A DNA stretch of 64,000 nucleotides from Desulfurivibrionaceae bacterium (GTDB lineage Bacteria; Desulfobacterota; Desulfobulbia; Desulfobulbales; VMSU01), in contig JAQYVV010000002.1 of NCBI GenBank assembly GCA_030145275.1, forward strand, positions 62,001-126,000, read 5' to 3'. Below, one piece after another: positions 14,889 through 59,086 of this stretch (position 1 is its first letter; every line of letters starts with the position of its first letter). The notes beneath the pieces were generated by a model. That model did not search any database. It had not been told where the DNA came from and saw nothing but the letters and a program-made list of their open reading frames with translations. Made by a program: the position numbers and the translations under genes.

Positions 14889-15082
14889 GTAACTATTCAG
14901 CTGCATCTCATCTGCGCCCGATCAGGCCGGCCAGCATACTGATGTATCGAAGTCTCACTTTGTTTGCTTATCTGCTGGCCGGCCTGATCGAACACATCTA
15001 AGGCACATCCGGAGTCTGCGCTTACCTGAACAGTTACGCTTGGGAGTTTACCCATGTTATGCAATTCTCGCTGAGTAGTTAC
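14889..15082. repeat. Intergenic palindromic element, GTAACTATTCAG family
   Basis: The element begins GTAACTATTCAG and ends CTGAGTAGTTAC, an inverted pair with one mismatch. Inside, 14919-14936 and 14973-14990 form a perfect 18-bp hairpin (CGATCAGGCCGGCCAGCA and its complement). The loop holds a 25-nt expanded form of the 17-nt unit (14948-14972). A standard 17-nt unit lies at 15010-15026. It fills most of the 355-base gap between the divergent M20 peptidase and lexA genes, so it may carry or disturb both promoters. Confidence 0.8.
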
Positions 15083-15231
15083 AATTATATTTACATTTAT
15101 GCATGAATTTTTTTAAACTATAGCTACTCCTTTTGTCTGATGAGCAGCCGGCCTGGGGATGGTGCGCACTATGAAGAATGTAAAAAATAATGTCAATAAA
15201 AATCCAAGAGGTTCATGGGGTTGGTGATCTT

Positions 15232-15864
15232 ATGCGACAAAAATTAACGAATAAGCAACAGAACTTCCTGGATTATCTGGAGGAAGAGCTGAATAAGAGT
15301 GGTGCTATTCCCAGTTTACGGGTGGCGGCCGAACAACTTCATATCAGCCATGCTGCGGTGGCCCAGTTTATAAAAACCCTGGAAAGAAAGGGGTACTTGA
15401 AACGGGAGGGGCGCTACAGCAGAAATATTTACCTTTTGAACCATTTAAGGCAACCAGAGGCAAAACAGCGTTGGCGGGAGGTGCCGATTATTGGCAAAAT
15501 TACTGCCGGCATGCCTATTTACGCCCAGCAGGAGTGGGATGGTAGTGTGGTGGTGGATGGCGAGGTTTATCGGGGCCAGAATCTTTTTGCCCTTCGTGTC
15601 CATGGGGATTCGATGAAGGATGCTGGAATTCTTAACGAAGATTTGGTCATTTGTGAACCGCGCCAATACGCAGGCAACGGCGAAATTGTGGTGGCCCTTA
15701 TACAATTTGAAGAGGCCACGGTAAAACGTTTTTTTCTCCATGAAGGTGGCATAGAATTGCGCCCTGAAAATGATAACTATGAAGCCGTTCGATACCCTTT
15801 TTCAGACGTCATGGTGCAGGGCAAGGTTATTGGAGTTCAACGCGGTCCGGAACAGATTAACTGA
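15232..15864 (+). CDS. lexA: LexA-type SOS repressor
   Basis: 210 residues from the ATG at 15232 (MRQKLTNKQQNFLDYL, matching the usual LexA start); an upstream in-frame ATG at 15190 would add 14 residues. An N-terminal winged helix (about 1-65) is followed by an S24 autocleavage domain. The cleavage pair Ala92-Gly93 (ITAGMP), catalytic Ser127 (VHGDSMKDAG) and Lys165 (ATVKRF) are all present, so RecA-stimulated self-cleavage should work. The helix-turn-helix AAEQLHISHAAVAQFIKTLE differs from the E. coli form, so the operator cannot be guessed. It lies 57 bases before a primase-helicase gene on the same strand, which may be part of the same SOS unit. Confidence 0.9.
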   Translation: MRQKLTNKQQNFLDYLEEELNKSGAIPSLRVAAEQLHISHAAVAQFIKTLERKGYLKREGRYSRNIYLLNHLRQPEAKQRWREVPIIGKITAGMPIYAQQEWDGSVVVDGEVYRGQNLFALRVHGDSMKDAGILNEDLVICEPRQYAGNGEIVVALIQFEEATVKRFFLHEGGIELRPENDNYEAVRYPFSDVMVQGKVIGVQRGPEQIN

Positions 15865-15921
15865 GGGGGGAATGGAGCCAAAACGGTTGCTTTCAACTTT
15901 TCTGAAAGGAGAGATCTGCAC

Positions 15922-17694
15922 ATGGATCGAGCAGAAGAAATAAAGAAATTCTATATGAAACATGTTGTCCAGGCAATGCTTGAGGACAATATGCTTAAGG
16001 CCCCCTGCCCGTTTTGTCCGTCCAGTGAAACAGAGGAGCCAGGGGTGTTGCTTGTGTATCTTAAACCCAATAGTTTTTTCTTGGGCTATTTTAGATGCGT
16101 GAACAGATGCAGGCCAGGAGGGTTTTCTCCCTATTTTGCAAGAGTCATGGGCATAGAGCCTCAGGAAGTGCCTGGATACGATCCAGATCGTGAACCCTAT
16201 GGGCATCAGACTATTTTTCCGGCCAATAATCTTAATGCTGAGATCAAGAAGTTCAGGTCCTTTATGAGCGATACAGAGTATGCTTATTTCAAGGGATTGT
16301 GCATATCAGAGGCCGTTGTAAACGAAATGAAGATTGGCTACAACGGCAGGTATCTGAGCTATCCCTACATTTTAGATGATGGGAATTGCTATGCCACAAG
16401 GTGCGTATTGCCTGAGCAGGAAGAGGATAATTTTTGGCACGGCGATGAGACGTTCTTTTCAGGAGAGTTTCGAATATTCAATGTGCAAGAGATAGATAGA
16501 TGCGAAAATGGAACCCTATTCATCACAGACGGGGAGAACAATCTTCTTACTCTCAAAGAGCTGGGGTATCCCTGCATTTCTGTACCATCCGTTGCCGATT
16601 TGGAATCAGTGAACTTAGAAAGACTGGCTTTTGTTAATCATGTTTTTTTGATCGTGACCAATGCTCCAGAGGCCCAACTTGCAGCACGTCTTTTGGCTAG
16701 TCGATTGGGTTTTAAATCCAGGATTATGAAATGGGCGCCCAATTTGACTCGAGGTTATACCTTGTGTCACCTGGCGAGAGATAAGGGCGAGAAGTTTAGG
16801 GTTGCTGTGACCTCCATGCTAAAATCTTCGAAATCCTTCTCCCCATTTTCGTCTCCGGAGAAGGAACATCGCAGGTTCATTGATTCCCTGGAACGAGAAA
16901 AAGGTAAGACTCTTCTTGGCATGGGTTGCGGTTTTCCCAAGATGGATGATACCCTCAGCGGTATTCGCGGCATTAACATCATGGGGGGGCAGCCTAAGGC
17001 TGGAAAATCCTGCTTTTTCATCCAAGTTTCAACAGAGATGGCCAGACAGAAGATACCTGTCATATACTATGATTTCGAAAACGGTCGTCAGAAGATATAT
17101 ACAAGGACCTTGTGCCGTTTAAGCAAGCTTTCTGAAAAAGAGATAAGACAGGCAGACCTGAAGGGCGAGCCGTTAAAAAGACTGGAGAGAGCTCATCAGG
17201 ATTTGCAGGATATGCTCCCCTATTTTCGGGTTGTAACAGATAGAAAATTAAGCCCGGATGTCATGAGAGGGCAGATCGAATTTTTGCAGAACCAAACCCA
17301 AACGGATCACGCACTTGTCGTTGTGGATAGTCTCCATAAACTCCCTTTCAAAAACCTTTCAGAGCGTAGAACAGGTATTGATGAATGGCTTCGGCACATG
17401 GAGGCCATCAGGGATGAGAATAATGTATCATTTCTGGTGATCTCTGAGCTTTCTCGCAGCCAAGGGGGGAGTTATAATATGAAACCAGATCTTGGTTCGT
17501 TCAAAGAGTCGGGAGATATAGAATACAGTGCCGACAATGCCATGATACTCACTCCCAGTTGGGATCCTTTGGCCCCCATTCCATCGGAAGAGAAAAAAAG
17601 CGCCTTGTGGCTGGTGGCCAGTAGGGAAAACAGTCCTGGGAAAATAGCCGAATACCTTTTGGAATATCCTTTCTGGGGATTTATCGAGGAATGA
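15922..17694 (+). CDS. Primase-helicase-like protein (zinc finger, Toprim-like, RecA/DnaB-like ATPase)
   Basis: 590 residues, start with AAAGGAGAG nine bases upstream. The N-terminus has a four-cysteine zinc site (Cys29, Cys32, Cys59, Cys63: CPFC and RCVNRC), as in CHC2 primase fingers. A Toprim-like section follows (about 180-260, LFITDGENNLLTLKELG). The C-terminal half is a RecA-fold ATPase: Walker A GQPKAGKS at 356-363, Walker B LVVVDSLHKL, then LVISELSR, as in DnaB/RadA-type proteins. This is the layout of T7 gp4/Twinkle primase-helicases and some mobile-element replication proteins. It follows lexA by 57 bases with no terminator seen. It may be a remnant of an integrated element or an SOS-induced repair replicase; both are inference. 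Confidence 0.75.
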   Translation: MDRAEEIKKFYMKHVVQAMLEDNMLKAPCPFCPSSETEEPGVLLVYLKPNSFFLGYFRCVNRCRPGGFSPYFARVMGIEPQEVPGYDPDREPYGHQTIFPANNLNAEIKKFRSFMSDTEYAYFKGLCISEAVVNEMKIGYNGRYLSYPYILDDGNCYATRCVLPEQEEDNFWHGDETFFSGEFRIFNVQEIDRCENGTLFITDGENNLLTLKELGYPCISVPSVADLESVNLERLAFVNHVFLIVTNAPEAQLAARLLASRLGFKSRIMKWAPNLTRGYTLCHLARDKGEKFRVAVTSMLKSSKSFSPFSSPEKEHRRFIDSLEREKGKTLLGMGCGFPKMDDTLSGIRGINIMGGQPKAGKSCFFIQVSTEMARQKIPVIYYDFENGRQKIYTRTLCRLSKLSEKEIRQADLKGEPLKRLERAHQDLQDMLPYFRVVTDRKLSPDVMRGQIEFLQNQTQTDHALVVVDSLHKLPFKNLSERRTGIDEWLRHMEAIRDENNVSFLVISELSRSQGGSYNMKPDLGSFKESGDIEYSADNAMILTPSWDPLAPIPSEEKKSALWLVASRENSPGKIAEYLLEYPFWGFIEE

Positions 17695-17726
17695 CCTCAA
17701 GCCAGACAGTCCTGGGTTGAGGTCAT
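17691..17726 (+). terminator. Hairpin overlapping stop of the primase-helicase gene
   Basis: ATGACCTCAA (17691-17700) pairs with TTGAGGTCAT (17717-17726), a perfect 10-bp stem that includes the TGA stop. No strong T-tract follows directly, so termination is possible but not certain. It lies between convergent genes. Confidence 0.4.
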
Positions 17727-17778
17727 TGCAAAAGGCTGAGTTTTTATAAAAATTAGTAAGTGTTAGTGTGGAACGAGG

Positions 17779-19092
17779 TTATAAGGATCTTTTATCAATA
17801 ACCCTTTTAGCCTTCCCTTCAAAACGCTCAAGGGATTTTTCTTCAACCAGCTTGACATCCACTGAGATTCCAAGTTCTGTGGCCAGCCGTTTTTTGATTT
17901 GATCTATTAATTGCCGCTGCTTTTTCATCTGGTCAAAAAATATCGACTCCATTACTTCCACCATGACTGTTGTTTTGTCGAGGCGGCCTTCCCGTTCCAC
18001 GATAATCTGATAGTGGGGTTCAGTGCCTTCAATGTCAAAAAGCACCTCTTCTATCTGGGAGGGGAAAACATTGACGCCTTTGATGATCAGCATATCATCT
18101 GTTCTGCCGAAGACCCGGTGCATCCTTTGAAATGTCCTGCCGCATGGACAGGGCTCAGGCATTAGGCGTGTCAAGTCTCGGGTTCTGTATCTGATGACTG
18201 GGAATGCTTCTTTGGTCAGAGTTGTAATAACAAGTTCTCCGGTCTCTCCAGGCGCTACCGGTTCTAGAGTTTCAGGGTCAATAACTTCTGCCAGAAAATG
18301 ATCCTCGTTTATATGGAGACCATTGCACTCCTGGCACTCACCGGCGACACCAGGCCCCATTATTTCACTGAGTCCATAGTTGTCGGTGGCGACGATATGC
18401 AGTTTTTCCTGGATTTCCTTTCGCATCCCTTCCGACCAGGGTTCGCCGCCAAAAAGGCCATATTTAAGGGGCAGGGCATTGATGTTGATTCCCTGTTCCG
18501 CCATGGTGTCGGCAAGTAGGAGGGCATAACTGGGAGTGCAGACAAGGGCGGTTGTCTTGAAATCCTGCATGATGGTCAATTGTCTCTTGGTGTTGCCGCT
18601 GGAAATGGGAATAACAGAGGCTCCTACCCGCTCGGCACCATAATGGAGGCCGAAGCCCCCGGTAAACAGGCCATAGCCAAAAGAAATTTGCACCACATCG
18701 TCTTGGTCGACTCCTGCAGCGGTGAGTACCCGTGCGGAGAGATTTGACCAGTTTTTAATATCATTTTTTGTATAGCCTACCACGGTGGCTTGGCCTGTGG
18801 TGCCAGATGAGGAGTGGACCCGGACAACTTCGCGCAGGGGGACGGCAAAAAGCCCATATGGGTAGTTGTTGCGTAAATCATCTTTGGAGGTGAAGGGCAG
18901 TTTGCTGACGTCATTGAGAGAAGTGAATCCATCCGGATCAATATTCATCTCTTTGAATTTTTTCCGGTAAAAAGGGACATGGGTGGCAACTCGAAACAGA
19001 GTTGATTGTAAGCGTTCAAGTTGAAGCTGCTCCAGATCTTCACGAGCCATGCACTCTTTTTCTTGTTCCCAGTAAGTGGATTTGTCTGTCAT
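17779..19092 (-). CDS. paaK: Phenylacetate-CoA ligase (copy 1)
   Basis: 437 residues, the normal PaaK length. The adenylation P-loop is [17 protein letters not shown], followed by motifs [41 protein letters not shown] and [20 protein letters not shown], ending in the family C-terminal KAKRVIDKR. The reaction is ATP-dependent formation of an aryl-acetyl-CoA. GAGGAG precedes the start. It is the last gene of the minus-strand block that starts with iorA at 30638; a paralogue with many identical motifs lies at 26899-28200. With IorAB it would handle arylacetic acids from aromatic amino acid breakdown, or run in reverse to conserve ATP from arylacetyl-CoA. Confidence 0.93.
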
Positions 19093-19198
19093 AACCCTGC
19101 TCCTCTACAATTATTTGAGAAACTTGAAACTTGAAACTTGCTGGAAGCTCTAAGGCATGAAGGATCTAATTTCCAGTTTCCAGTTTCAAATTTCACTT

Positions 19199-19918
19199 TT
19201 AAACAGCTTCCCTGCCAAGGTAGGCCCTTTGCACATCATTATTTGCCAAAAGGTCTTCAGCCGGGCCTTGGACAATAATCTTGCCGGTCTCCAACACATA
19301 GCCCCTGTCCGCAATTGCAAGTGCCGCTTTGGCATTTTGTTCAACCAGCAGAACGGTGTTGCCGCTCTCTTTTAATTTTACAATAATTTCAAAAATGTTT
19401 TTGACGATTAAGGGTGCCAAGCCGGTGGAGGGCTCGTCCATCATAATCAGAGCAGGTTTGGCCATAAGCGAGCGGCCCATGGCCAACATCTGCTGTTCAC
19501 CGCCGGATAGGGTACCGGCAAGCTGGTTTTCTCGTTCCTTGAGGACTGGAAAAAGGGCAAAAATTTTATCCAGTTCCGCCAGAGCCTTTTTTTTATCTTT
19601 TTTGTAACGGACATAAGCGCCAAGAATTAGATTTTCCCTGACATTCATGGTGGCAAAGACCTGTCTTCCCTCAGGAACCAGGGAGCAGCCGAGTTTGACG
19701 ATTTTTTCAGGTGAGAGTCTGCAAAGATCATTGCCTTGCAAAACCATCTCACCAGCCCGTGGTTTGAGCAGGCCGCAAATGGTATGCAGCAGAGTAGTCT
19801 TGCCGGCCCCGTTGGCGCCGATTATGGTAACAATTTCTCCAGGATCAACATGCATGGAGATGCGGCGCAGTACCTTTAAATTACCATAGGCTGTTTCAAT
19901 GTTTTTTATCTTTAGCAT
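19199..19918 (-). CDS. livF: Branched-chain amino acid ABC transporter ATPase LivF
   Basis: 239 residues. Walker A is GANGAGKTT, the signature is LSGGEQQML, Walker B is LIMMDEPSTGLAP, and the H-loop region is VLLVEQNAKAAL. Length and signature fit LivF. It is separated from livG by 195 bases, nearly all taken by a repeat element (19920-20086). Reading along the gene's strand, the end of that element runs TAAGGCACTAAT directly into the ATG, so the only visible Shine-Dalgarno (AAGG) lies inside the repeat. The same junction occurs at thiF (31109). Confidence 0.95.
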   Translation of the reverse strand: MLKIKNIETAYGNLKVLRRISMHVDPGEIVTIIGANGAGKTTLLHTICGLLKPRAGEMVLQGNDLCRLSPEKIVKLGCSLVPEGRQVFATMNVRENLILGAYVRYKKDKKKALAELDKIFALFPVLKERENQLAGTLSGGEQQMLAMGRSLMAKPALIMMDEPSTGLAPLIVKNIFEIIVKLKESGNTVLLVEQNAKAALAIADRGYVLETGKIIVQGPAEDLLANNDVQRAYLGREAV

Positions 19919-19919
19919 A

Positions 19920-20086
19920 TTAGTGCCTTAGGGCTGGAATTCTGAAACAAAAAACAGGTAAGCAGAGACTCCGGGTAAGCGAAGACTCCGGGTAAGCAGA
20001 GACTCCGAAAAAATTAAATAAGGTCAATGCTGCTGGAAGGTTATAGCCTGCTGTTAAGGCACTTATTTCCGGTTTATCCGGATTAG
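19920..20086 (+). repeat. TTAGTGCC element, copy 1, with three 17-nt units
   Basis: It starts TTAGTGCCTTA against the livF start and ends TCCGGATTAG. An inner inverted copy (TAAGGCACTT near 20055) makes the element palindromic. In its middle lie three exact head-to-tail 17-nt units (19957-19973, 19974-19990, 19991-20007; GGTAAGCAGAGACTCCG type). It splits livF from the rest of the liv operon. Confidence 0.85.
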
Positions 20087-20113
20087 TTTTGTCGAGATGC
20101 TGGGGCGATGCCA

Positions 20114-20878
20114 TCAAGCATCGTCATCTCCAAGATATACCTTAATGACTTCAGGGTTGTTTTGAATGGCTTGAGGAACATCTTCCGCAATTTTTTTGCC
20201 AAAACTCAAAACCACGATCTCATCGGATATGTCCATTACCAAAGACATATCATGTTCCACCAGAAGAATGGTAATTCCCATGTCTCTGATTTTACAGATC
20301 AGTTTAGCCAACTCGGCAGTTTCATATATATTAAGACCGGCGGCCGGTTCATCTAGTAGCAGCAGGGTGGGGTCTGCAGCCATGGCCCTGGCTAGCTCCA
20401 CGGCCCTTTGTTGGCCAAAGGAGAGGCTGGCTCCATCGATATGTGCAAAATCAGCAATTTCAACCAACTCAAGAAGCTCCATGGAGTAATCTCTGATTTT
20501 TTTCTCCTCCTTCCAGGTCCATGGCAGGTTGAGCATGGCAGCCATAAAACCGGCATGGCTCTTGGGGTGGCGGCCCACCATGACATTTTCAAGGGCAGTC
20601 ATGCCATGAAACATTTTGATGTTCTGAAAGGTACGAGATATGCCTAAAGATGCAATTTTGTGAGGCGGACGGCGCTGAATACTCTTGCCCTGAAAGGTGA
20701 TGGTCCCGGAGTTAGCGGGGAGATTGCCAGCGATCAGGTTAAAAAGGGTGGTTTTGCCGGCGCCGTTTGGACCGATCAGGGCCTTGATGGCGCCTTGCTT
20801 GACGTCAAAGGAGACCTCGCTTACTGCCTGCAGGCCGCCGAAAGATTTATTTAATAGTTGAACATCAAGCAGAGGCAT
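20114..20878 (-). CDS. livG: Branched-chain amino acid ABC transporter ATPase LivG
   Basis: 254 residues. Walker A is GPNGAGKTTLFN, the signature is LSFGQQRAVELARAM, and Walker B is LLLLDEPAAGLN. The C-terminal extension after Walker B is that of LivG. Its ATG overlaps the stop of the upstream chemoreceptor gene by one base (TAATG), which implies translational coupling. It should pair with LivF as the ATP-hydrolysing dimer under the LivHM channel. Confidence 0.95.
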   Translation of the reverse strand: MPLLDVQLLNKSFGGLQAVSEVSFDVKQGAIKALIGPNGAGKTTLFNLIAGNLPANSGTITFQGKSIQRRPPHKIASLGISRTFQNIKMFHGMTALENVMVGRHPKSHAGFMAAMLNLPWTWKEEKKIRDYSMELLELVEIADFAHIDGASLSFGQQRAVELARAMAADPTLLLLDEPAAGLNIYETAELAKLICKIRDMGITILLVEHDMSLVMDISDEIVVLSFGKKIAEDVPQAIQNNPEVIKVYLGDDDA

Positions 20879-22656
20879 TATGAAGCAGACTCCAGTTGAA
20901 GTTTACGGGCTGCCTCGCTGTCCATAGTAGAATTATGGTCAGATGCTTTGTTTGCCGCTCCTTGGGAGGAGCAGGCCAAATTGGTCAAGGTGTCGGCTGA
21001 CTCTTTCATGACAGTAACCTGCTGGTCCAGATCGTCCACCAGTTCGGTGAGCATGGAAGCGGTATGTGAATTGTCCTGGGATGTCTGGTCAAGAGAGGAT
21101 ATTGCGGTGGCGATCTGTTCGGTGCCCAGGGCCTGCTCCTTGGAGGCATTGGCAATATTATCTACGGAGGACATCAGGTTGACAAAAGAATCATTCAGGG
21201 TTGAAAAGGTGCTGACTATCCCATCTGAGACCCCTTTGCCGGCAGTAATATCGTCTGACATTTGAAAAACCAGCTCGGAGGTGTCTTGTGCTGCTTTAGA
21301 AGAGCGTTGGGCCAGGTTTCTGACTTCATCGGCCACTACGGCAAAGCCAGCTCCGGCTTCTCCGGCCCGGGCTGCCTCAACTGCGGCATTTAAGGCCAGC
21401 AGATTGGTCTGAAAGGCAATCTGATCGATTAAGGTAACAATACCTTTTATCTCACTGCTATTGTTGTTGATCTTCTCCATGGACTCAGAGAGGGAGTGCA
21501 TGGATTCAGCAGATTCTTTATAAATATTAAGGTCGCTCTCCATCTTTTGTTTTACCTCTGTGGCTGAAGCGGCATTTTGCCTTGAGGTGGCGGAGATCTC
21601 TTCCACGGTGGCGGCGACCTCCTCAAGTGTAGAGGCTGTGGAAGAGACGCTGTCTGCTAGTTTGTGACTCTCGGTGGTTAGGTTCTCACAGGCCCGGCCC
21701 ACATCACCAGTCGTCTGGTTTTGGCTCTGGATTACTGTTACGATTGGGGTAACTATTTGTCTGGTTATAATAAGGCCCAACACCACCACGGCCAGGCCAA
21801 TGGAGGCAATAAATGACCAGATAAACTGCTTGATCACCTGGCGGTTAAATTTAAACACCTCTTTTGCAGGCATGGCAAAGTTAATCTGCCAACCTAGGTC
21901 TTTTAATTGGCGGGCTGCGGTGACCCAGCCTTGCAATTCGCCATTATTCAGATCGGTCTGTATTTTTTCAGTAACGCTGCTTGAGGCCTTTATTGGCCCG
22001 TTTTTGCCCTTGATTATACATGCCATCTTATGTGACTCCACATCGGCAAAAAGCTTGTCTAGTACTGAGTCTAGAGGCTGCTGCAGCCACAAAATGCCCT
22101 GGAGTCCTTCGGTAGTAATTAAAGGAATGGCTGATATAAGCGTTATTGAACCAGCCTCCTGCTTGATTTGATGAATTATATTGCGTCCTTGCTTAGCATC
22201 TTGCTTCTCTTCAAAATTTTGCAGGGCAGTGGCATAGTCAAAATTGTTAAATTCCTTGGTGCTCTCCCCGGAATTTAACTGAATTAGGGCCTGTTGCCGG
22301 TCTGAGAGTTGAATCAGCTCATATTGTGGTTTTATGCCGTAAATTCCCTTAAAAAAGTTGGCCAGGCCCTCCTGGGCTGTTTCGGCACCGTAATCATCAC
22401 CTAAGTCCAGTGAGATGAACAGGGTTTCAATTGCATCATGCTTCTGGATAATTGAGAGGTCGGCGTTGGTGGCGGTGGTCAGTTTGGAGAATTGCTGCTG
22501 TTTGGCGTCGGTTATACTGTTAATCCTCTCTAATGCGGTTGCTTTTAGATTGGTCGAGATCATTCTTTCAAGGATTATTGCGGATATGCCTTGGCACACA
22601 GAAAAAATCACCAAGGCAATCAAGACTATTTTACGGTTAATTTTATTGCATTTCAT
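20878..22656 (-). CDS. Methyl-accepting chemotaxis protein embedded in the liv operon
   Basis: 592 residues. TM1 is at about 9-28; a periplasmic sensor region covers about 30-275; TM2 is at about 280-303 ([20 protein letters not shown]). The cytoplasmic signalling helices contain the invariant hairpin tip ([20 protein letters not shown], then [15 protein letters not shown]). The gene lies between livM (stop 7 bases before its ATG, with AGGAG) and livG (1-base overlap), so it is truly part of the transport operon. This suggests a receptor for the transported amino acids, acting either directly or through the binding protein LivK. A classical HAMP is not obvious after TM2. Confidence 0.93.
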
Positions 22657-22663
22657 CAGCTAG

Positions 22664-24618: not shown

Positions 24619-24691
24619 AGATTGCAGCAGCAAGGTCAGTTCATGGCTGTTTAGGCCATGAATAAAAGTTGTGAAGTTGTGAGTGAATAAG

Positions 24692-26019: not shown

Positions 26020-26169
26020 CTAATCCGGATAAACCGGAAATAAGTGCCTTAACAGTGGTCTGCAACATATTGGGAGCATTGTTCTTTTTTTGAATTCTCG
26101 AAGACTTCGCTTATCCGAAGTCTTCGCTTATCTATTTTTTGTAACAAGATTTCAGTTATAAGGCACTAA
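26020..26169 (-). repeat. TTAGTGCC element, copy 2, with two 17-nt units
   Basis: On the minus strand it begins TTAGTGCCTTATAAC and ends CCGGATTAG. Its TTAG supplies the TAG stop codon of the ACT-domain gene (stop at 26166-26168). Two tandem 17-nt units lie at 26099-26115 and 26116-26132. The rest of the gap to livK (25897-26019) holds only AT-rich spacer and presumably the livK promoter. Confidence 0.85.
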
Positions 26170-26767: not shown

Positions 26768-26899
26768 GTAACTGTTTGTCAACGCGCCAGAGGGAGGTGA
26801 ATGGGACGATGAGTAGATAAGCGAACAAAGTGAGACTTCGATACATCGGTATGCGAAGCGGCCCAATCGCCTTCCTCTGGTGTGTTGACGAATAGTTAC
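26768..26899. repeat. Intergenic palindromic element between ACT gene and paaK copy 2
   Basis: It begins GTAACTGTTTG and ends CGAATAGTTAC. Arms 26778-26805 and 26862-26889 pair over about 28 bases with a few mismatches (GTCAACGCGCCAGAGG against CCTCTGGTGTGTTGAC). The loop has the 25-nt expanded unit (26816-26840), and about 36 bases of this loop match the loop of the lexA-side element, although the stems differ. Its last base overlaps the paaK stop codon. Confidence 0.8.
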
Positions 26900-30957: not shown

Positions 30958-31108
30958 CTGATCCGGATAAACCGGAAATAAGTGCCTTAACAGCAGTCTG
31001 CAACATATTGAGAGCATTATGCTTTTTGAAATCCTCGAAGTCTTTGCTTATCCGGAGTCTTCGCTTACCTGCTTTTTTGAGACAGGGTTTCAGTTATAAG
31101 GCACTAAT
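30958..31108 (-). repeat. TTAGTGCC element, copy 3, with two 17-nt units, abutting thiF
   Basis: Same sequence and orientation as copy 2. It starts with CCGGATAAACCGG and ends TTATAAGGCACTAAT, directly followed by the thiF ATG at 31109, so AAGG in the element is the visible ribosome-binding sequence. Two 17-nt units are at 31036-31052 and 31053-31069. Confidence 0.85.
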
Positions 31109-33036: not shown

Positions 33037-33161
33037 ATAACTAATCAGGAACACCCCATCTTTGCCCATTTCGGAGTCTACGCTTACCTGGTCTTCTCGA
33101 ATAACACTAGTATGCTTCGAAGTCCCAAATGAACAAATATGCGGCCTTCCTGAATAGTTAT
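33037..33161 (-). repeat. Intergenic element between thiG and thiH with one 17-nt unit
   Basis: An inverted homologue of the second block of the thiF-thiS element: read on the minus strand, both share CATATTTGTTCATTTGGGAC and an ACTAGTG core. Between GAGAAGACC and GAAATGGGC this copy has exactly 17 additional bases, one 17-nt unit (33072-33088), that the other copy lacks. It ends ATAGTTAT, overlapping the first possible thiH ATG (33160). Confidence 0.88.
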
Positions 33162-34442: not shown

Positions 34443-35732
34443 ATGGCTGATTTAAAAAAAATGTATACCACTATTCTTGGGGACTCATTCCCCATGGAAA
34501 TGAAGATAAGTTTTGGGGATCAGACCCTGGTTTACAAGAAAAAAACCTGGAAAATCTTCATGGATGACGGATCGGTTGATGAACGTGGTGTCCGTTATGG
34601 TGAGAACCCGGATCAGGAAGCAGCTCTGTACGAACTGGTTAATGGTAATCTGGCCCTTGGTGACTGTCAGTATATAACTCCAGGAAACGGCTTGGTGAGC
34701 AGCATAAACGTAGAAGATATGCTGCAGGTTGGTAAGCATCCCGGAAAAATTAATCTCACCGACATTGATAATGGTTTGAATATTATCAAATATATGATGG
34801 ACAAGCCGGCCGCTACCATTCTCAAGCACAACAATCCCTGCGGCGCTGCTATTGGAAGTTCTATCAGCGATGCCTACAATAAGGCCAATAGAACCGACAG
34901 GATTGCTGCTTTTGGTGGCTGCGTTATTTTGAATAGGGCCTGTGATAAAGCGACGGCTGAGGCCATCAGTGATAATTATCTGGAGGTTGTTGTGGCACCG
35001 GAATTTGAAGATGGAAGTCTTGATATCCTGAAAGGCCGCAAAAACCTGCGTGTTATAAAAATTGCCAGGATAGACCGTTTGGCTGAATTTGAAAAATTTC
35101 GTTTTGCCGACTTCAAGAGCTTGATTGATGGAGGTTTAATGGTGCAGCAGTCTGCGGTCAATTCCATTCGGACAGTTGCGGACCTGAAACCTGCGGCCAG
35201 TACTTCCAAAGGTATAGACTACAAAGTTGAGCGCGAGCCTACCCAGCGTGAAATAGACGATATGCTGTTTGGTTGGGCTGTCGAGCATGGCGTTACCTCG
35301 AACTCAGTTATTTTTGTAAAAGATGGTTGTACTGTCGGTGTCGGAACTGGAGAGCAAGACAGGGTCGGGGTCGCAGAAATTGCAGTTCATAAGGCATATG
35401 TCAAATACGCTGATATTATCTGTTACGATCAATTTGGCATTCCTTATGCCGATTTAAATCTTGAAATTGAAGCAGGGAAGCGGGATAAGGCCGATCGTGA
35501 AGCCATAGATGCAAAAACTAAAGAAGATAAAGCAGGCTTGCCTGGCTCTGTTATGATATCGGATGCTTTTTTCCCATTTAGAGACGGAGCTGACGTTGGT
35601 ATCAGGCAGGGGGCCTCAGCTATTCTACAGGCCGGTGGTTCCATGCGTGATTGTGATACGATTGTGGCTTGTAATGAGGCGAATCCTAAGGTGGCCATGA
35701 AGTTCACCGGTCAAAGGTCTTTTAAACATTAG
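34443..35732 (+). CDS. Stand-alone AICAR transformylase (PurH C-terminal domain only)
   Basis: 429 residues with GGAGG seven bases before the ATG. It holds the AICARFT domain: VRYGENPDQEAALYEL, the catalytic ILKHNNPCG (Lys-His), AAFGGCVILNR, and the C-terminal DAFFPFRDGADVGIRQGASAILQ. The MGS-like IMP cyclohydrolase domain of ordinary PurH (about the first 200 residues) is absent, so a separate enzyme must close the IMP ring. Single-domain forms occur in anaerobic Desulfobacterota. With purM 860 bases on, this is a purine group. The TAG stop is part of a TTAGTGCC element. Confidence 0.92.
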   Translation: MADLKKMYTTILGDSFPMEMKISFGDQTLVYKKKTWKIFMDDGSVDERGVRYGENPDQEAALYELVNGNLALGDCQYITPGNGLVSSINVEDMLQVGKHPGKINLTDIDNGLNIIKYMMDKPAATILKHNNPCGAAIGSSISDAYNKANRTDRIAAFGGCVILNRACDKATAEAISDNYLEVVVAPEFEDGSLDILKGRKNLRVIKIARIDRLAEFEKFRFADFKSLIDGGLMVQQSAVNSIRTVADLKPAASTSKGIDYKVEREPTQREIDDMLFGWAVEHGVTSNSVIFVKDGCTVGVGTGEQDRVGVAEIAVHKAYVKYADIICYDQFGIPYADLNLEIEAGKRDKADREAIDAKTKEDKAGLPGSVMISDAFFPFRDGADVGIRQGASAILQAGGSMRDCDTIVACNEANPKVAMKFTGQRSFKH

Positions 35733-35878
35733 TGCCTTATAACTGAAATCCTGTCACAAAAAACAGATAAGCGTAGACTTCGGATAAGTGAAGGCTTCGA
35801 GAATTCCAAAAATGAACAATGCAGCCAATATGTTGCAGATCACTGTTAAGGCACTTATTTCCGGTTTATCCGGATTAG
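35729..35878 (+). repeat. TTAGTGCC element, copy 4, with two 17-nt units
   Basis: It begins TTAGTGCCTTATAAC, giving the stop of the AICAR transformylase gene (TAG at 35730-35732), and ends TATCCGGATTAG at 35878. Two tandem 17-nt units are at 35766-35782 and 35783-35799. It is nearly the same length as copies 2 and 3 (150 bases). Confidence 0.85.
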
Positions 35879-42092: not shown

Positions 42093-42270
42093 ACTCGTAA
42101 AAAGTCTGGATCTGCCTCAAGATGGCTAAGCACAGATAAGCGCAGACTTCAAGGCGTGGTATTTTTTAGCGGGCTTCGGTCATACATATGGTATACCGAA
42201 GGTCGGTAAAAAATCCATTTATGCCCCTTGTGGGTACAACGCAGTAGATCGGACTTTTTGCGACGCCATC
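42093..42270. repeat. Complex palindromic element between murJ and rsmE
   Basis: Outer arms TCGTAAAAAGTC (about 42094) and GACTTTTTGCGA (about 42254) pair with one mismatch. An inner stem pairs GGCTTCGGT with ACCGAAGGT around ATGGTAT near 42190. One 17-nt unit is at 42135-42151 (GATAAGCGCAGACTTCA). It covers the space between two convergent genes and may act as terminator for both. Confidence 0.7.
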
Positions 42271-46711: not shown

Positions 46712-46717
46712 AGGTAA

Positions 46718-50455: not shown

Positions 50456-50616
50456 GTAATTATTCGGATTGCCGCCGAAAAACAGTTAAAAGCGCTGAGC
50501 CCAGATGAACCGGAGATAAGCGTAGACTCCTATATGAAGCACATCCGGAGTCTGCGCTTACCTGAACAGTTACAGCCTGGAGTTAAGGGTAATTTCCGCC
50601 TACGCTGAATAATTAA
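50456..50616. repeat. Intergenic element between NtrC regulator and PHP gene, two 17-nt units
   Basis: Ends are GTAATTATTCGG and CTGAATAATTA. It has a 17-nt unit on the minus strand at 50515-50531 and another on the plus strand at 50546-50562, an inverted pair that could form a hairpin. The right half (TGAACAGTTACAGCCTGGAG onward) is repeated at 57413-57471, where the plus-strand unit is missing. The other part of this 334-base gap (50338-50455) shows nothing. Confidence 0.85.
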
Positions 50617-50671
50617 AATTAATCTACTTTTATCATAAAAAACACGAAGATAATTTCTAAGGTACTAATAG

Positions 50672-51523: not shown

Positions 51524-51648
51524 GGGGTTTTTTTTCCTGGTCTGCCGCAAGAAAAATCTTTACCTTTCGCAGATCATTGCAGTATGATTTGTCTAAATTA
51601 AGATTAAAGTAATATCAGTTTCCTTGAAAAAAACAATGGAGAGTTTGC

Positions 51649-52731: not shown

Positions 52732-52772
52732 GGGCTTGAGTTTCAATGAGTTATTTTTACGGCCCCTGAACT

Positions 52773-55262
52773 TTAATAAAAGGTGCTTACTTCCATTTTC
52801 TCTTTTATTCTAAAGAAGATGCTGCCTGAAATTGCGGTTGTAAGGATGGTGCTTCCCGAATTCCTATATTCTTGCATTCTCTCTGCTGAAGGGAATGTTG
52901 GCTCCTGTTGCCTCGCTCCGGCTGAGATGACCACATAGTCTGCGGAAACCGCTCTGATAAATTCATCGGAACTTGATGTTTTGCTGCCGTGGTGCGGAGC
53001 AATTAGGATGTTGGCCTTTAGTTCCTCTCCCGCTTCGATGAGTTGTTGCTCCGCTTTTTTTTCAATGTCTCCAGGAAAGAGGCATGTTGTGCTGCCAATA
53101 GTGAGCTTTATGATAAGGCTTTTGTTGTTTCCATCGTCATCCTTTTTTTCAACTTCCCTCTCTTTGCCTTGAGTTTTGTCATCCCTGTGCAAGTTCCCTA
53201 TTACCCGCAAAGATATTTGCTCTTCTGCGTATATCTCTTCATCTTTGGCAGGAACTATTACTGGAATCCCGTGGTTCTGGGCTATCTCCCGTGTTTGCTT
53301 GAGTCTCGGGGCATGCATTGCGGCGCTGTTTGTCCAAATGGCTTCAGGGGCGAAGTGGTCAATTAAAAAGGGGATGCCGTTGGCATGATCCGAATCTGGG
53401 TGGCTAATGATAATTCCAGTGATTTTGTCTATTTTTTTGTCCCACAGAAAGGGGGCGATCAAGTCCCTGCCGACATTGAATCTGTTGGTCGGTCCCGCCT
53501 GTTTTTTGCCCCCGTCTATTACAAATATTTTGTCATTTGGAAGTTCAACGACTATCGCAAGGCCTTGGCCAACGTCAAGGATGGATATGGTGCTTTGATC
53601 GGAGTTTTGTTTTTTGTCCGGCCAAAAAAAAGAGAGAAGCCCTAAGATGATAATAGCCAGAAATGTTGCTGCGATTTGATGCACTTTCTTGCCTTTGAAA
53701 AACGAGATGAGCAGTTCTTTTTTTAAAAGCAGGGAAAAGAAAAGTAGTAGAAATAGGTAATAGGCAAGGATGACGGCTATCGATGGTGTTGGAAGCCAGA
53801 CGAAAGCAAAGGGTAGTTTTGCAAGGAGTTGGGTGATTGAATTTGCCGCCTGGATACCCATTCCTCCCGCTTGAAACAACCCTGTCGCGATAATTGGTAT
53901 AGGGATAAAGAGGCAGGCGAAAAGTCCTAAGATCAAGGACCAGAAGCATAAGAGAGGCTCGATCAAAAGAGTGCTTATGGGACTGATCAGGGAGATGCGA
54001 TTGAAATGGTAGGCGAGCAATGGAGCTGTGCCGAGGGAGGCGGCAAATGATATGAGAATACTTGCCAGGCAAAATGCCTTCACTTTGTTGGGGGCTGCCT
54101 GCTTTGTTTTGTCTGTGCTTTTTGTGTCCTTGTTGTTGATCTGGAATAGGGCGGAAATTTGCGGAAGGATTAAGGCTATTGAGCCAACAGCAGCAAAGGA
54201 AAGCTGAAATGATACGGTGAAAAGATCAGATGGGTTTATGGTGAGCAGTATGAGGGCTGCAAGCGCCAGATTGTTAAAGATTGATCCCTGCCGGTTCCAA
54301 ATGATGGCCCCCATGAAGATATAGGTCATTATTATGGCCCTTAATACCGGGGTGTGGAAACCGGCAATTAGGGCATATATGGCTAGGGGGGGGATTGAAA
54401 TAAGAGCTGTCGTTTTCCATACAGACCATCTAAGCAGCATGGTTTCTGAGTGTCTCAGGAGCCATGCAATGGCCACGCTGAGAAAAAGGGCCAAGAGGCC
54501 GATGTGTAGGCCAGAGATGGCAAGGAGGTGGATATTTCCCGCCGCTTTGTAATTTTCTGTGATTTCTGGGGGAATCCCTGCTCGGTCTCCAATCAGAATG
54601 GCTTTGTATATTCCAGCTGTAGATGCAGGTAAAATTTCATCAATAAAAAGACCAATGTTTTGTCGAATTTTTTCGGGAAAAGAGCGAATCTTTGTGGGGG
54701 GAGATGCGGGTTGTAAGTCGTGGATTTTGCGGAGGAAGTATGGGGATGAAAGCCAACCTGTTACCCATATTTTCTGGTTGGCCAGATACGATGCATAGTC
54801 AAAAGCACCGGGGACGCCATGATTTCTGGGGCGGGATAATCGTGTTTTGGCAATGATCTTGTCGCCTGGTTTGATCTCATTTGGGGGTGAACCGGGCATT
54901 GCAAGCAGGACTTTGCCGCTAATTGGCAGAGTTGCATTTTTCAGGCGCAATTGTTCTGTTTCGACGAGAAACCTGCTTTTGTCACTTCTTCTTTCTGGCG
55001 CTTTTGTGAGAGTGCCAGTTATAACAACTTCCCGGGGGGCCTCGATCAGATTGTATATATGTTGCGGGTTATCAGGGGGAGAAAGAAAAGGGGTTGTGTG
55101 TACTCCCCCTAGCAAGAAAAAGAGAGGGAGTATAAGATATTTGCCGAAAATGCCGGTTGGGCGTCGCAGCCCAATCAGCAGGCGTGTTGCCAGAATAATA
55201 ATAAGAATCCAGCAAAAAGAGCTGGGGATCAGAGCAACCCGAGCCCATGTGATCCCTGCCAT
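52773..55262 (-). CDS. comEC: ComEC/Rec2 DNA uptake channel
   Basis: 829 residues. An N-terminal DUF4131/OB-like part (about 30-190), the Competence domain with many membrane helices (LLAISGLHIGLLALFLSVAI), and a C-terminal metallo-beta-lactamase domain (ISILDVGQGLAIVVELPNDK, HPDSDHANGIP, IAPHHGSKTSSSDEF). The full three-part architecture suggests a working channel that moves single-stranded DNA across the inner membrane. It starts 49 bases after the sigma factor stop, so it may be transcribed from that gene's promoter. Confidence 0.95.
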   Translation of the reverse strand: MAGITWARVALIPSSFCWILIIILATRLLIGLRRPTGIFGKYLILPLFFLLGGVHTTPFLSPPDNPQHIYNLIEAPREVVITGTLTKAPERRSDKSRFLVETEQLRLKNATLPISGKVLLAMPGSPPNEIKPGDKIIAKTRLSRPRNHGVPGAFDYASYLANQKIWVTGWLSSPYFLRKIHDLQPASPPTKIRSFPEKIRQNIGLFIDEILPASTAGIYKAILIGDRAGIPPEITENYKAAGNIHLLAISGLHIGLLALFLSVAIAWLLRHSETMLLRWSVWKTTALISIPPLAIYALIAGFHTPVLRAIIMTYIFMGAIIWNRQGSIFNNLALAALILLTINPSDLFTVSFQLSFAAVGSIALILPQISALFQINNKDTKSTDKTKQAAPNKVKAFCLASILISFAASLGTAPLLAYHFNRISLISPISTLLIEPLLCFWSLILGLFACLFIPIPIIATGLFQAGGMGIQAANSITQLLAKLPFAFVWLPTPSIAVILAYYLFLLLFFSLLLKKELLISFFKGKKVHQIAATFLAIIILGLLSFFWPDKKQNSDQSTISILDVGQGLAIVVELPNDKIFVIDGGKKQAGPTNRFNVGRDLIAPFLWDKKIDKITGIIISHPDSDHANGIPFLIDHFAPEAIWTNSAAMHAPRLKQTREIAQNHGIPVIVPAKDEEIYAEEQISLRVIGNLHRDDKTQGKEREVEKKDDDGNNKSLIIKLTIGSTTCLFPGDIEKKAEQQLIEAGEELKANILIAPHHGSKTSSSDEFIRAVSADYVVISAGARQQEPTFPSAERMQEYRNSGSTILTTAISGSIFFRIKEKMEVSTFY

Positions 55263-55311
55263 ATAGGCAAGGGTAACGGGGATGAAGGAGTAGTTGACGT
55301 TAAAGATGGGA

Positions 55312-56625
55312 TTACTGATCGGTGAAAGGTCTCAGTTTTTCTCGTCTGCTCGAGTGTCTTAGACGATTTAATGCCTTTTTCTCAATCTGACGAATACGCT
55401 CTCTTGAGACGTTGAAACGCTTTCCGATCTCCTCTAGGGTGTATTCTGCGTCCTCGCCAATCCCAAATCGGAGGCGAATTATTTTCTCTTCGCGTGGGCT
55501 GAGGGTCATGAGTATGGTTTTTACCTGATCTGAAAGCTCAGAGTTTTTTACCGACTCATATGGGGAGGCGGACTCTTTGTTCTCAAGGAAGTCGCCAAGG
55601 GTGGAGTCGTCGTCGCCAACCGGAGTTTCGAGAGAAATTGGTTCTCTGGAGGCCTCTAGGATGGCTAGAATCTTGTCCATCGGCAGACCGGTCTGCTCGG
55701 AAATCTCAATAGGGGTTGGTTCTCTGCCCAGTTCTTTGAGCAGGGAGTAGAAGGCCTTAAAGAACTGACTGCGAAGTTCGAGGAAATGTACCGGAAGTCT
55801 GATGGTTCTGGTCTTGTCCAGAATGGCTCTGGTGATTGCCTGCCGGATCCACCAACTGGCATAGGTGCTGAATTTATTGCCTTTGGTGTAGTCAAAACGA
55901 AAAACAGCCCGCATGAGACCAAGGTTTCCCTCCTGGATAAGGTCAGCTAGGCTGAGGCCTTGATGCATATAGCGCTTGGCTATGCTGACCACAAGTCGGA
56001 GGTTGGCCTTTATCATGGCATCTTTAGCCCATTCTATGTTGCGGCTATAGGATTCAACTTTTTGCTGCATTAGGGTGAGAGAGGGTACCTCTTTGTATTT
56101 CACCCGGGTGGTTTTTATGGAGCGAACCATAAAATTTAGATGCTGTTTTTTTGGCTTCAGGGTTGGGTCGCGTTTTTCCCATAATGCGATGCGGTCAACC
56201 AGTATTTCCATCTCTGGAACACCGGACTCGTCTGTTCGTATCGAGTTGATAATGGCGTCAAAACCGCTGCGGATGGCTTTGCTGTAAGTCTCTTCGTCCT
56301 CTGGGGTGAGAAGGTCAAAGCGCCCCATTTCCCGGAGGTATGTAGTTGTTGTTTCCTCAGGTTCGTGCTGTTCAACTTTCCCTGCGATGACGTCGTGTTT
56401 CTGGTCTTCATCAGCACTGACATCATCATCTGCGGGGGACGCTTTCTCTTTGGCAGGCTTTTCTTCGTCGACAATTTCAATCTTGTTTTCAAAAAGAAAA
56501 TCATAGATCTGGTCGATGAAGACGGCGGTTTTCTCTTCTGGGATCAAGTCATTTAAAAATGACAGAGTAATGCAGCCATTTTTCTTCCCTGCTTTGAGCA
56601 GTCTTGCTTTTATGTTTTCAGGCAC
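55312..56625 (-). CDS. Sigma-70 family factor, RpoD-like with short non-conserved region
   Basis: 437 residues from the GTG at 56625 (reads PENIKARLLKAGKKNG after it; GGGAG upstream). An upstream ORF extension of 37 codons looks non-coding. Region 1.1-like N-terminus (about 1-50), acidic linker, region 1.2 TTTYLREMGRFDLLTPEDE, region 2 NLRLVVSIAKRYMHQGLSLA and SWWIRQAITRAI, region 3, and region 4 LEEIGKRFNVSRERIRQIEK. It is much shorter than E. coli RpoD (613) because the insert between 1.2 and 2 is small. No dnaG or rpsU is adjacent, so it may be the housekeeping factor or a second group 1/2 sigma. Confidence 0.88.
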   Translation of the reverse strand: MPENIKARLLKAGKKNGCITLSFLNDLIPEEKTAVFIDQIYDFLFENKIEIVDEEKPAKEKASPADDDVSADEDQKHDVIAGKVEQHEPEETTTTYLREMGRFDLLTPEDEETYSKAIRSGFDAIINSIRTDESGVPEMEILVDRIALWEKRDPTLKPKKQHLNFMVRSIKTTRVKYKEVPSLTLMQQKVESYSRNIEWAKDAMIKANLRLVVSIAKRYMHQGLSLADLIQEGNLGLMRAVFRFDYTKGNKFSTYASWWIRQAITRAILDKTRTIRLPVHFLELRSQFFKAFYSLLKELGREPTPIEISEQTGLPMDKILAILEASREPISLETPVGDDDSTLGDFLENKESASPYESVKNSELSDQVKTILMTLSPREEKIIRLRFGIGEDAEYTLEEIGKRFNVSRERIRQIEKKALNRLRHSSRREKLRPFTDQ

Positions 56626-56783
56626 AGATAATGCTCCCGATCGTATATTTGGCTCGTGTGAACAGCATGTGGCGTAAATGCGGCACAAATGGACACGAAA
56701 ACTATTTAGTATAAAATAAAAGATCCAGAATAACAAGAGAAATGACGAAAGAACCGATGTGTGGGTGTTTTTTTTAGGTTAAT

Positions 56784-56851
56784 CTGAAGTCTGGGCTTTC
56801 CGAAGTCTCCTCTTGTCTGAAGTCTCACCTTATTCGAAGTCTTCGCTTATC
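56784..56851 (+). repeat. Tandem array of four 17-nt units
   Basis: Four head-to-tail units with exact 17-base spacing: 56784-56800, 56801-56817, 56818-56834 and 56835-56851. The last one, CGAAGTCTTCGCTTATC, equals the consensus; the first three are degenerate. The array lies between the divergent sigma factor and fliS genes, so it may sit in both promoters. Confidence 0.85.
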
Positions 56852-56909
56852 TGATGACATCAGAATTGAAAAATTAAAGTTTGTCTGCTGTTTGTTCGAT
56901 ACGAGTGAT

Positions 56910-57392
56910 ATGGAGAACTATTCGAGTCAAAATAAGAGTGTTGCTGATGTTTATCAGACGCAGTCCGCGAAAGTCGAAGATATTCATCCGGTTAAATTGA
57001 TATATATGCTTTATGAACGCGCTATTTCCCATGTTGAGGCCGTGGAAAAAAGTATTGCCGACAACGATCTGAAGAAGCGGGGCGAGAATTTAGGCAAGGC
57101 AATTGCGATTGTAACCGAGTTGAATGCCTCGATTAGGCAAGATGATGACAGTAATGCCGCCAAGTTTTTACGCACACTATACACCGCCATTCTGACCGAG
57201 CTGCCGCGGATATCTGTTTCTGGAGAACTGCAGAATCTCCGTTTGGCTCATAGCTATTTGCAGAAATTGAAGGATATCTGGGAAGATTCTGCCATGGTTG
57301 AAATTGGTATTCAAAAGGACAAGGGGGCCGTTGCTGAGGGGGATGATGAAAAGCCTTCTCCGGAGCCGAAGACAATATCAGTGGCGGTTTGA
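56910..57392 (+). CDS. fliS: Flagellar export chaperone FliS-like
   Basis: 160 residues from the ATG at 56910 (MENYSSQNKS); TTG at 56892 would add six. The four-helix FliS pattern is clear: YQTQSAKVEDIHPVKLIYML, then YERAISHVEAVEKSI, KAIAIVTELNASI and a DI-W motif near residue 130. A 30-residue acidic tail is beyond the usual FliS length. FliS holds flagellin unfolded before export. No fliC or fliD is next to it, which is unusual; the chemoreceptor in the liv operon supports a motile cell. Confidence 0.82.
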   Translation: MENYSSQNKSVADVYQTQSAKVEDIHPVKLIYMLYERAISHVEAVEKSIADNDLKKRGENLGKAIAIVTELNASIRQDDDSNAAKFLRTLYTAILTELPRISVSGELQNLRLAHSYLQKLKDIWEDSAMVEIGIQKDKGAVAEGDDEKPSPEPKTISVAV

Positions 57393-57412
57393 TTTTTTGT
57401 CTAAATATAAAA

Positions 57413-57471
57413 CATCTGAACAGTTACAGCCTGGAGTTAAGGGTAATTTCCAGCCTACGCTGAATAATTAC
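57413..57471 (+). repeat. Intergenic repeat after fliS, unit-free copy
   Basis: It matches the right half of 50456-50616 almost base for base, except that CATC joins TGAACAG directly, without the 17-nt unit found there. It ends CTGAATAATTAC. The remaining bases to the sat promoter (57472-57558) show nothing else. Confidence 0.85.
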
Positions 57472-57558
57472 TAATATTTTATCTAAAAAAATCCTTTCCT
57501 ATTATCAAGTAGTTGCGTCAGTAAGGCCGTTTTTTTACGGATTTCCACATGTTTTCCC

Positions 57559-57587
57559 TTGACAATTCCCTTGCCCATTTTTATCTT
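57559..57587 (+). promoter_or_regulatory. Sigma-70 promoter for sat
   Basis: A perfect -35 TTGACA (57559-57564), a 17-base spacer and a -10 TATCTT (57582-57587). Predicted transcription start is about 57594, giving a leader of about 80 bases to the sat ATG. The strength of the -35 agrees with high expression of this gene. Confidence 0.6.
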
Positions 57588-57672
57588 CTCACTTTCCTTA
57601 AAATGAATGATAGTTCATTATTATAGTTTATTTTTATATATCTAACCTACAACCCAAAGGAGACTTACTCAA

Positions 57673-58950
57673 ATGTCTAAATTAGTTGCACCACACGGCG
57701 GAAAAGGATTGGTTTGTGCATTATTACACGGAAACGAGCTGGCAGCAGAGCAGGAAAAAGCAGCCGGATTGAAAAAAATCCAAATCAGTGCTCGCGCTAA
57801 AGGCGACCTTATCATGATGGGTATCGGTGGTTTCAGCCCACTTGACGGTTTCATGACCAAGGCTGACTGGAAAAGCGTTTGTGAAAACTACACCTTGGCT
57901 GATGGTACATTCTGGCCTGTTCCTGTTACTTTGGATTGCGATAAAGCAGATGCTGATGCGATCAGTGCCGGTGACGAAATTGCCCTTGAGAATGACGGCG
58001 TTATCTTTGCTACCATGAAAATCAGCGAAAAATATGAAATGACCGAAGCTGACAAAAAATGGGAATGTGAAAAAGTATTCTTAGGTGAAGGCGAGGAATC
58101 TGAAGGCGATAACTTTTGGAAAATAGCTCCAGAAGATCACCCAGGCGTTATCATGGTTCTGAACCAGAAAGAGGTAAACCTTGCTGGTACAGTTAAAGTT
58201 CTTTCCGAAGGCGAGTACCCAGAGCAGTACAAAGGTGTTTACTTGACTCCAGCTGAGACCCGTGCCATTTTTGAAGAACGCGGTTGGTCTAATGTTGCTG
58301 CCCTGCAGCTCCGTAACCCAATGCATCGTTCCCATGAGTTCCTTGCAAAAATCGCCATTGAGGTATGTGATGGTGTTTTGATTCACTCCTTGATCGGTAA
58401 TCTCAAAGCAGGCGATATCCCAGCTGATATCCGTGTTCAAGCGATTGATATCCTCATTGAGAACCACTTTGTAAAAGACAACGTTGTAAACGCCGGATAT
58501 CCTCTTGATATGCGTTATGCTGGTCCTCGCGAGGCCCTGCTGCATGCTACCTTCCGTCAGAACTACGGAATCAACAAAATGATCATTGGTCGTGACCACG
58601 CTGGTGTTGGTGACTTCTATGGTCTTTTCGAAGCTCAGACAATTTTCGATAAAATTCCTACCGATGGCGGCGAAGGCAAAGCCCTTCAGTGTGAGCCTCT
58701 GAAAATCGATTGGACCTTCTATTGCAAAGAGTGTGATGGTATGTCTTCTCTTCGAACCTGCCCACACAAGAAAGAGAGCAGAGTAATTCTTTCCGGTACC
58801 AAACTGAGAAAAGCCCTCTCTGATGGTGCTGAGATTGTCGATCATTTTGGTCGTGATGAAGTTATCACTCACCTTCGTGCCTACTATGAAGGTTTGACCG
58901 AGAAAGTTGAAGTTAAAATGCAGGGCGCCGCTTCTGGTGAATCTATGTAA
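57673..58950 (+). CDS. sat: Sulfate adenylyltransferase (dissimilatory type, homo-oligomeric)
   Basis: 425 residues with AAAGGAGA before the ATG. Motifs: [18 protein letters not shown] (QxRNPxHRxHE active site), [34 protein letters not shown], and a zinc/cysteine segment [17 protein letters not shown] then [10 protein letters not shown]. It activates sulfate to APS with ATP, the first step of sulfate respiration (or the last in sulfur disproportionation). The codon choice is visibly more restricted than in neighbours, as expected for an abundant protein. Single gene with own promoter and terminator; aprAB and qmo are not in the window. Confidence 0.97.
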
Positions 58951-58980
58951 TTTCTTTTTGAAATTACTGTTTGCATTGCA

Positions 58981-59018
58981 AAGGGATACCTGGTTGATTC
59001 AGGTGTCCCTTTTTTTTT
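58981..59018 (+). terminator. Rho-independent terminator after sat
   Basis: AAGGGATACCTG (58981-58992) pairs fully, with one U-G pair, with CAGGTGTCCCTT (59000-59011), followed by a run of T to 59018. Confidence 0.93.
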
Positions 59019-59024
59019 GTTATC

Positions 59025-59086
59025 ACGAAACACATTTATGCCCCTCGGATCGGAGTCTTCGCTTACCTTAGGGGTACGAAACACAC
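59025..59086. repeat. Short intergenic element with one 17-nt unit before aroB
   Basis: ACGAAACAC occurs at both ends in direct orientation, and CCCCT and AGGGG flank the centre as an inverted pair. The centre holds one 17-nt unit, CGGAGTCTTCGCTTACC (59051-59067). It fills the space between the sat terminator and aroB. Confidence 0.75.

Follow-up and report, generated by a model that had tools for sequence, protein, structure and literature searches.

Can a repeat of 17 nucleotides move on its own? The question is raised by a window of 64,000 nt (the whole stretch of DNA analysed here) from a Desulfurivibrionaceae bacterium, in which one short unit with the consensus CGNAGTCTNYGCTTANC recurs between genes, singly or in short tandem arrays. 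How DNA this short, well below the length of the ends of any known transposon, could be mobile has been a question since small dispersed repeats (SDRs) were described in cyanobacteria.

The unit and its copies in the window

The genes in the window include sat, aroB, murJ, thiG-thiH and a lexA-like gene, and the window is therefore ordinary chromosome. An earlier note, made from the sequence of the window, had listed the sites of the unit, and every one of these was recovered (Table 1): there were 18 pattern matches with up to three mismatches versus 1.05 expected from shuffled sequence, and none of 100 dinucleotide shuffles equalled 18. The two 25-nt forms and the tandem spacing of exactly 17 were likewise found as described, but the sites occupy 11 intergenic gaps instead of the 12 claimed, and the fourfold array starting at 56784 does consist of four 17-nt repeats, of which only that at 56835-56851 is canonical. 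Base 1 of the unit is C, and base 9, which had been given as K, can be any base. The near-palindrome GAAGTCTTC, described as contained in the unit, is present only in units of the A-T type (named for bases 3 and 16, see below) with T at base 9, hence is not a conserved feature, and was rejected as functional core since base 9 is free.

Most units are 17 nt long, with longer forms of 22-27 nt also present, and their ends share only CGR at the left and YC at the right, without terminal inverted repeats. Arrays with a single unit predominate (392), followed by 9, 5 and 2 arrays with two, three and four units, respectively. Tandem units are arranged head-to-tail with a period of exactly 17 and without spacer, some of them identical and others differing from their neighbour in pair type or loop; inverted neighbours exist (e.g. 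50515/50546) and are not the rule. There was no match above the gathering score in Rfam anywhere in the window, none of six 17-mers occurred in the papers searched, and literature searches gave nothing relevant on repeats of the Desulfobulbales group.

Table 1. Units, long forms and host elements in the window (positions are those of the window)
Feature	Position	Strand	Remark
25-nt long form CGAAGTCTCACTTTGTTTGCTTATC	14948..14972	+	at loop/3'-stem boundary of palindromic host element
17-nt unit, G-C type	15010..15026	+	pattern match; same junction found empty elsewhere
Host element A (TTAGTGCCTTA...), 3-unit copy	19920..20086	-	
Three tandem units, loops CTG, TCG, CTG	19957..20007	-	neighbours unlike
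Host element A, 2-unit copy	26020..26169	+	
Two tandem units, A-T type	26099..26132	+	
25-nt long form CGAAGTCTCACTTTGTTCGCTTATC	26816..26840	-	
Host element A, 2-unit copy	30958..31107	+	
Two tandem units, A-T then G-C	31036..31069	+	each pair internally matched
Host element of ~123 bp occupying the thiG-thiH gap	33038..33160	+	45 genome matches for query
17-nt unit within thiG-thiH-gap element	33072..33088	+	element copies without unit at same junction exist
Host element A, 2-unit copy	35729..35878	-	
Two tandem units	35766..35799	-	one of them mutated
17-nt unit, A-T type	42135..42151	-	
17-nt unit	50515..50531	-	base 1 is A, 3-16 pair G.T
17-nt unit	50546..50562	+	opposite orientation to unit at 50515
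Array of four 17-nt repeats	56784..56851	+	three degenerate, last canonical (56835-56851)
17-nt unit	59051..59067	+	ATP-sulfurylase / 3-dehydroquinate synthase gene gap

Genomic placement and distribution

We expanded the count to the whole genome from which the window derives (G000; 3.09 Mb, 67 contigs, 84% complete), as the earlier note had proposed, and found 335 matches with up to two mismatches, compared with 12 for the reversed pattern as control. Placement was analysed in 750 kb of G000 containing 128 arrays, and although a simple gene caller marked 82% of this sample as coding, each of the 128 arrays was intergenic, with none even partly overlapping a called gene, in line with the claim that the unit lies only between genes. 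No single type of gap was preferred in this sample. MITE-like elements serve as hosts for the units, and since 122 of the 128 arrays were located in repeated host elements, much of the copy number may reflect passive spread with these hosts. The family of ~123 bp found in the thiG-thiH gap was present in about 40 other places in G000, with many copies in the relatives G002, G005 and G007.

Of 243 genomes in the class, 140 carried exact copies, which numbered 243 in G000 and at most 167 in its relatives; the control gave no hits. In the phylum outside the class, two of about 150 genomes contained one or two copies each. The record titles of the matching genomes were overwhelmingly Desulfobulbaceae, Desulfocapsa, Desulfopila, Desulforhopalus, Desulfobulbus and kin, by which we take the carrier order, and with it that of G000, to be Desulfobulbales; cultured carriers are Desulfopila, Desulfobulbus rhabdoformis, Desulforhopalus and Desulfosediminicola. 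Single matches in Planctomycetota, Blastocatellia, Providencia, Christensenellaceae and Omnitrophota, most of them without T at position +1, were set aside, as chance matches are expected from a collection of 257 Gb. A 331-base stretch containing a copy of a host element gave no match in plasmids, and 15 stretches with the exact G-C form were found in IMG/VR. One viral contig (IMGVR_UViG_3300033153_011881; L330, L334, L336) has CGGAGTCTTCGCTTACCT in at least four exact copies, all on the same strand and spread across 1 kb where measured; these may be a coding repeat or host DNA assigned to a virus by mistake.

Units are precisely inserted at a short target

The flanks of each array were aligned to the rest of the sampled G000 sequence in search of the same junction without a unit. 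The flank was repeated elsewhere for 122/128 arrays, the empty junction was found for 96/128, and for 84 of these it was exactly clean, whereas arbitrary 17-nt excisions 200 bases away, used as control, gave no empty junction. In one such case the empty junction consists of gatccccgataacgacat directly followed by tcggggatgacgatcgta, and the filled copy has those 36 bases split by CGGAGTCTGCGCTTACC. No target duplication was seen. With regard to the thiG-thiH region, no unit was present in the versions retrieved from five relatives, and the gap is ~170 bp shorter in G001 and G005, the relatives in which both genes were matched.

Variable copy number, as described in the earlier note, is seen in host element A, which contains 0, 1, 2, 3 or 4 units at one position in steps of 17 nt, its empty form being ggaattctTgttttttgtgac. 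Units were also found within units: in six cases from several genomes a complete unit splits an outer unit after base 13 or base 8, with insertion points that read CT↓T (the arrow marks the point of insertion) and have T at +1, as in other sites. In the example CGGAGTCTACGCT[CGAAGTCTGCGCTTATC]TACC (L236), both the outer G3-C16 and the inner A3-T16 are preserved, and outer and inner pairs were each self-consistent in five of the six cases, the exception being L085 with an outer pair A.C. In the L055:14254 region a partial unit, TCGCTTATC, is flanked by two complete units, and looks like a nested insertion minus the left half of the outer unit. The clean empty sites, the ladder of 0-4 copies at one site, the nesting and the many unrelated host contexts all uphold the suggestion that the unit moves or expands apart from its hosts.

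In 92 separate contexts, position -1 was T in 60 and C in 18, position +1 was T in 84, and position +2 was G in 66 and C in 17, so that the target read from these alignments is Y↓T(G/C) and strand-specific. An extended tetranucleotide of the REP type was not found in the flanks of these 92 contexts. Insertion into hairpin loops was rejected as a rule, with a stem of at least six pairs in 4/92 contexts, not clearly above the 1.5% expected from shuffled flanks.

Covariation and the predicted fold

Positions R3 and Y16 had been treated as independent, but they covary as a base pair. In the sampled genomes this pair was G-C in 101 units, A-T in 48, C-G in 24 and G.T or T.G in 6, with 4 other combinations, and the mutual information of 3-16 was 0.83-0.97 bits, whereas the position pair ranking second reached 0.125. 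The pair was Watson-Crick in 83/97 separate contexts, where 20,000 shuffles reached 60 at most. The sister genus G002 gave 55 matches to CGY...TAR, almost only C-G among the matches listed. Also in G002 (L185, L191, L192, L196), C-G units were paired exactly 33 bases (17 + 16) apart, for example at C1:2933 and 2966 and at C30:192 and 225, which suggests a second unit of 16 nt in between.

Judging by their sequences, the long forms add a second covarying helix: forms of 27 nt read CTNCN-CTNYG-NTNCG, those of 25 nt mostly CTC-N-CTNYG-N'-TCG, and those of 23 nt CTC-G-TNC-C-TCG. The inner helix pairs were C-G (9), A-T (9) and G-C (1) in the 25-nt forms (n = 20), and G-C (7), A-T (4) and G.T (1) in the 27-nt forms (n = 12), while the T.C columns (G.A on the bottom strand) are nearly fixed. 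Nearest-neighbour folding predicted the isolated 17-mer to be without stable structure, so that one has to assume either non-canonical pairs or a protein that recognises the unit. In DNA, C(GNA)G forms a mini-hairpin loop of exceptional stability, and tandem sheared GA is an established motif. As the T.C columns turn into fixed G.A pairs and triloops of the type C(GNA)G when read on the bottom strand, we infer that it is this strand which carries the fold; it would then be 5'-GRTAAG C(GNA)G ACTYC-3', capped by a GNA triloop and including G.A pairs.

Orientation of units and candidate enzymes

The replichores of the complete, single-contig genomes G133 and G067 were placed by GC skew, and orientations were counted by hand. 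The top strand of the unit ran along the leading strand in 28/36 units of G133 and 17/28 of G067, and the leading-strand orientation was also the more frequent in G000 (76:49) and in other loci (58:44). In gaps of G000 without a common transcription direction this bias was 37:13, and the coding bases of G000 are evenly split between the strands; in same-direction gaps the top strand was sense versus antisense in 42:21. The orientation bias leans towards replication-coupled single-stranded DNA, although it is modest and not decisive, as the copies are not independent.

Neither the Y1 transposase (Y1_Tnp) nor the reverse transcriptase (RVT_1) domain was found in all unit-rich genomes. Genes of the Y1 family occur in most genomes of the class, and Y1_Tnp was not found at E ≤ 1e-8 in the unit-rich genomes G000, G136, G139 and G167, nor at E ≤ 0.1 in G167, which has 121 exact units, or in the complete genome G081. 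The sole candidate in G000 is a 194-aa frame (G000:C62:242011-242385, minus strand) with a very weak match (E 0.01). The presence of Y1_Tnp does not track the unit-rich genomes, and Y1_Tnp is not required now. RVT_1 was absent at E ≤ 1e-8 from 8/24 genomes, nearly all of them unit-rich and some 94-96% complete. For both domains, draft genomes may miss genes, and an enzyme of the past could since have been lost. The complete 3.6-Mb genome G067 had 47 RVT_1 matches, many in frames of equal length (446, 454 or 458 aa), which is a striking expansion, probably one of group II introns. An autonomous parent adjoining the units was also considered and rejected, as the neighbouring proteins form no recurrent cluster of mobile genes; the largest cluster is linked via members such as a sigma-54 response regulator and looks like ordinary regulators.

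What may move the unit

The unit is probably a very small non-autonomous mobile element, a folded module of 17 nt, or 22-27 nt in its long forms, that would be copied and precisely inserted, without target duplication, at intergenic Y↓T(G/C), often into other repeats or into itself. Precise insertion, strand-specific target, copy ladder, nesting and base-pair covariation, all shown by sequence comparison, support this reading. If the 17-mer were instead a passive building block of mosaic repeats, comparable to BIME motifs, spreading only when its hosts are copied and changing in number by slippage, one could explain why nearly all arrays lie inside repeated host elements and why some tandem units are identical, but this is quite improbable given the many unrelated junctions with clean empty counterparts and the units found within other units; moreover, adjacent tandem units are often unlike in loop or pair type, which slippage does not yield. 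An immobile regulatory or protein-binding site under selection would account for strictly intergenic units and for one sequence being conserved in many families throughout the order, and is highly improbable in view of the clean empty sites, the 0-4 ladder, the nesting, the absence of a preferred gap type, and the orthologous thiG-thiH regions of five relatives without a unit.

Within the reading as a mobile element, movement of a single-stranded DNA hairpin in trans by an HUH/Y1 enzyme (RAYT or IS200-like), as proposed for REPINs, is somewhat unlikely: a folded module with G.A pairs, the lack of target duplication, a target conserved on one side, the leading-strand bias and the occurrence of Y1-family genes in most of the genomes from the class all agree with it, whereas the absence of Y1_Tnp from unit-rich G167 and from the complete G081, the single very weak candidate in G000, the lack of correspondence between Y1_Tnp and unit-rich genomes, and flanks without an extended REP-type tetranucleotide do not. 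RNA-mediated retro-insertion, in which a folded transcript of the unit would enter the DNA through reverse transcription or reverse splicing, is unlikely; the compensatory pairs include G.T/T.G and sense copies outnumber antisense copies in same-direction gaps, but RVT_1 is missing from genomes nearly all rich in units, and the leading-strand bias remains where gaps have no common transcription direction. For the mobile module itself we propose that the bottom strand, single and folded, would be what is recognised, and that an enzyme acting in trans would insert the module; the weak leading-strand orientation bias makes it probable that this takes place during replication. In its full form, that of a self-contained 17-nt module ranking with the smallest known units of mobile DNA, served by a dedicated putative Desulfobulbales enzyme that would act on a GNA-capped, G.A-paired single-strand hairpin and insert it at Y↓T(G/C) during replication, independently of RAYT and reverse transcriptase, the proposal is tentative, and we give it somewhat less than even confidence.

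Comparison with known systems

The statement in the earlier note that the unit fits no known class was correct for CRISPR, REP/BIME and simple MITEs, but the cyanobacterial SDRs do resemble it; that note contained neither this likeness nor the base pairs, the forms with longer loops, the preference for T(G/C) as target or the order-wide range. Judged on array layout, the unit differs from CRISPR in that its tandems have no spacers and most copies are single. It shares with MITEs a non-autonomous, intergenic nature, yet has no terminal inverted repeats and makes no target duplication. BIME modules and the STAR and MIRU tandem repeats change in number at fixed sites or move as parts of mosaics; they are likewise short intergenic modules in variable number, while for the unit, clean empty sites are seen at numerous junctions unrelated to one another and within its own copies. 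REPs are palindromes of greater length that include a conserved tetranucleotide. REPs and REPINs resemble the unit in being short, intergenic, folded, of high copy number and presumably moved in trans (PMC3116915). They differ in that REPs form palindromic doublets, whereas the unit is one 17-nt module, mostly single or else head-to-tail, and is present where Y1_Tnp was not detected.

The SDRs of Nostoc reportedly are 21-27 nt long and folded with compensatory changes, and are said to lie inside minitransposons, to be nested in their own copies and to be mobile. The unit likewise measures tens of nucleotides and has compensatory changes in its predicted fold (the 3-16 pair and the inner helices), and it is inserted in minitransposons and nested in itself. 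A passage of PMC3116915 cites Elhai et al. 2008 (Genome Res 18:1484) for these SDRs. If mobile as we read it, the unit belongs with the smallest pieces of mobile DNA known and adds to the SDRs a clear second example from a different phylum, for which empty sites are exact, copies are nested, the target is defined and covariation fixes the fold. As some carriers are in culture and a genome may contain as many as hundreds of copies, a direct search for the enzyme and the donor strand is now feasible. The differences are that the hosts of the Nostoc SDRs belong to an unrelated phylum and that the unit is mainly 17 nt rather than 21-27 nt, forms one family throughout an order, and has a Y↓T(G/C) target, a predicted GNA-type mini-hairpin and a variable inner helix. 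By its anatomy, the unit would nevertheless work like an SDR, which is the closest known kind.
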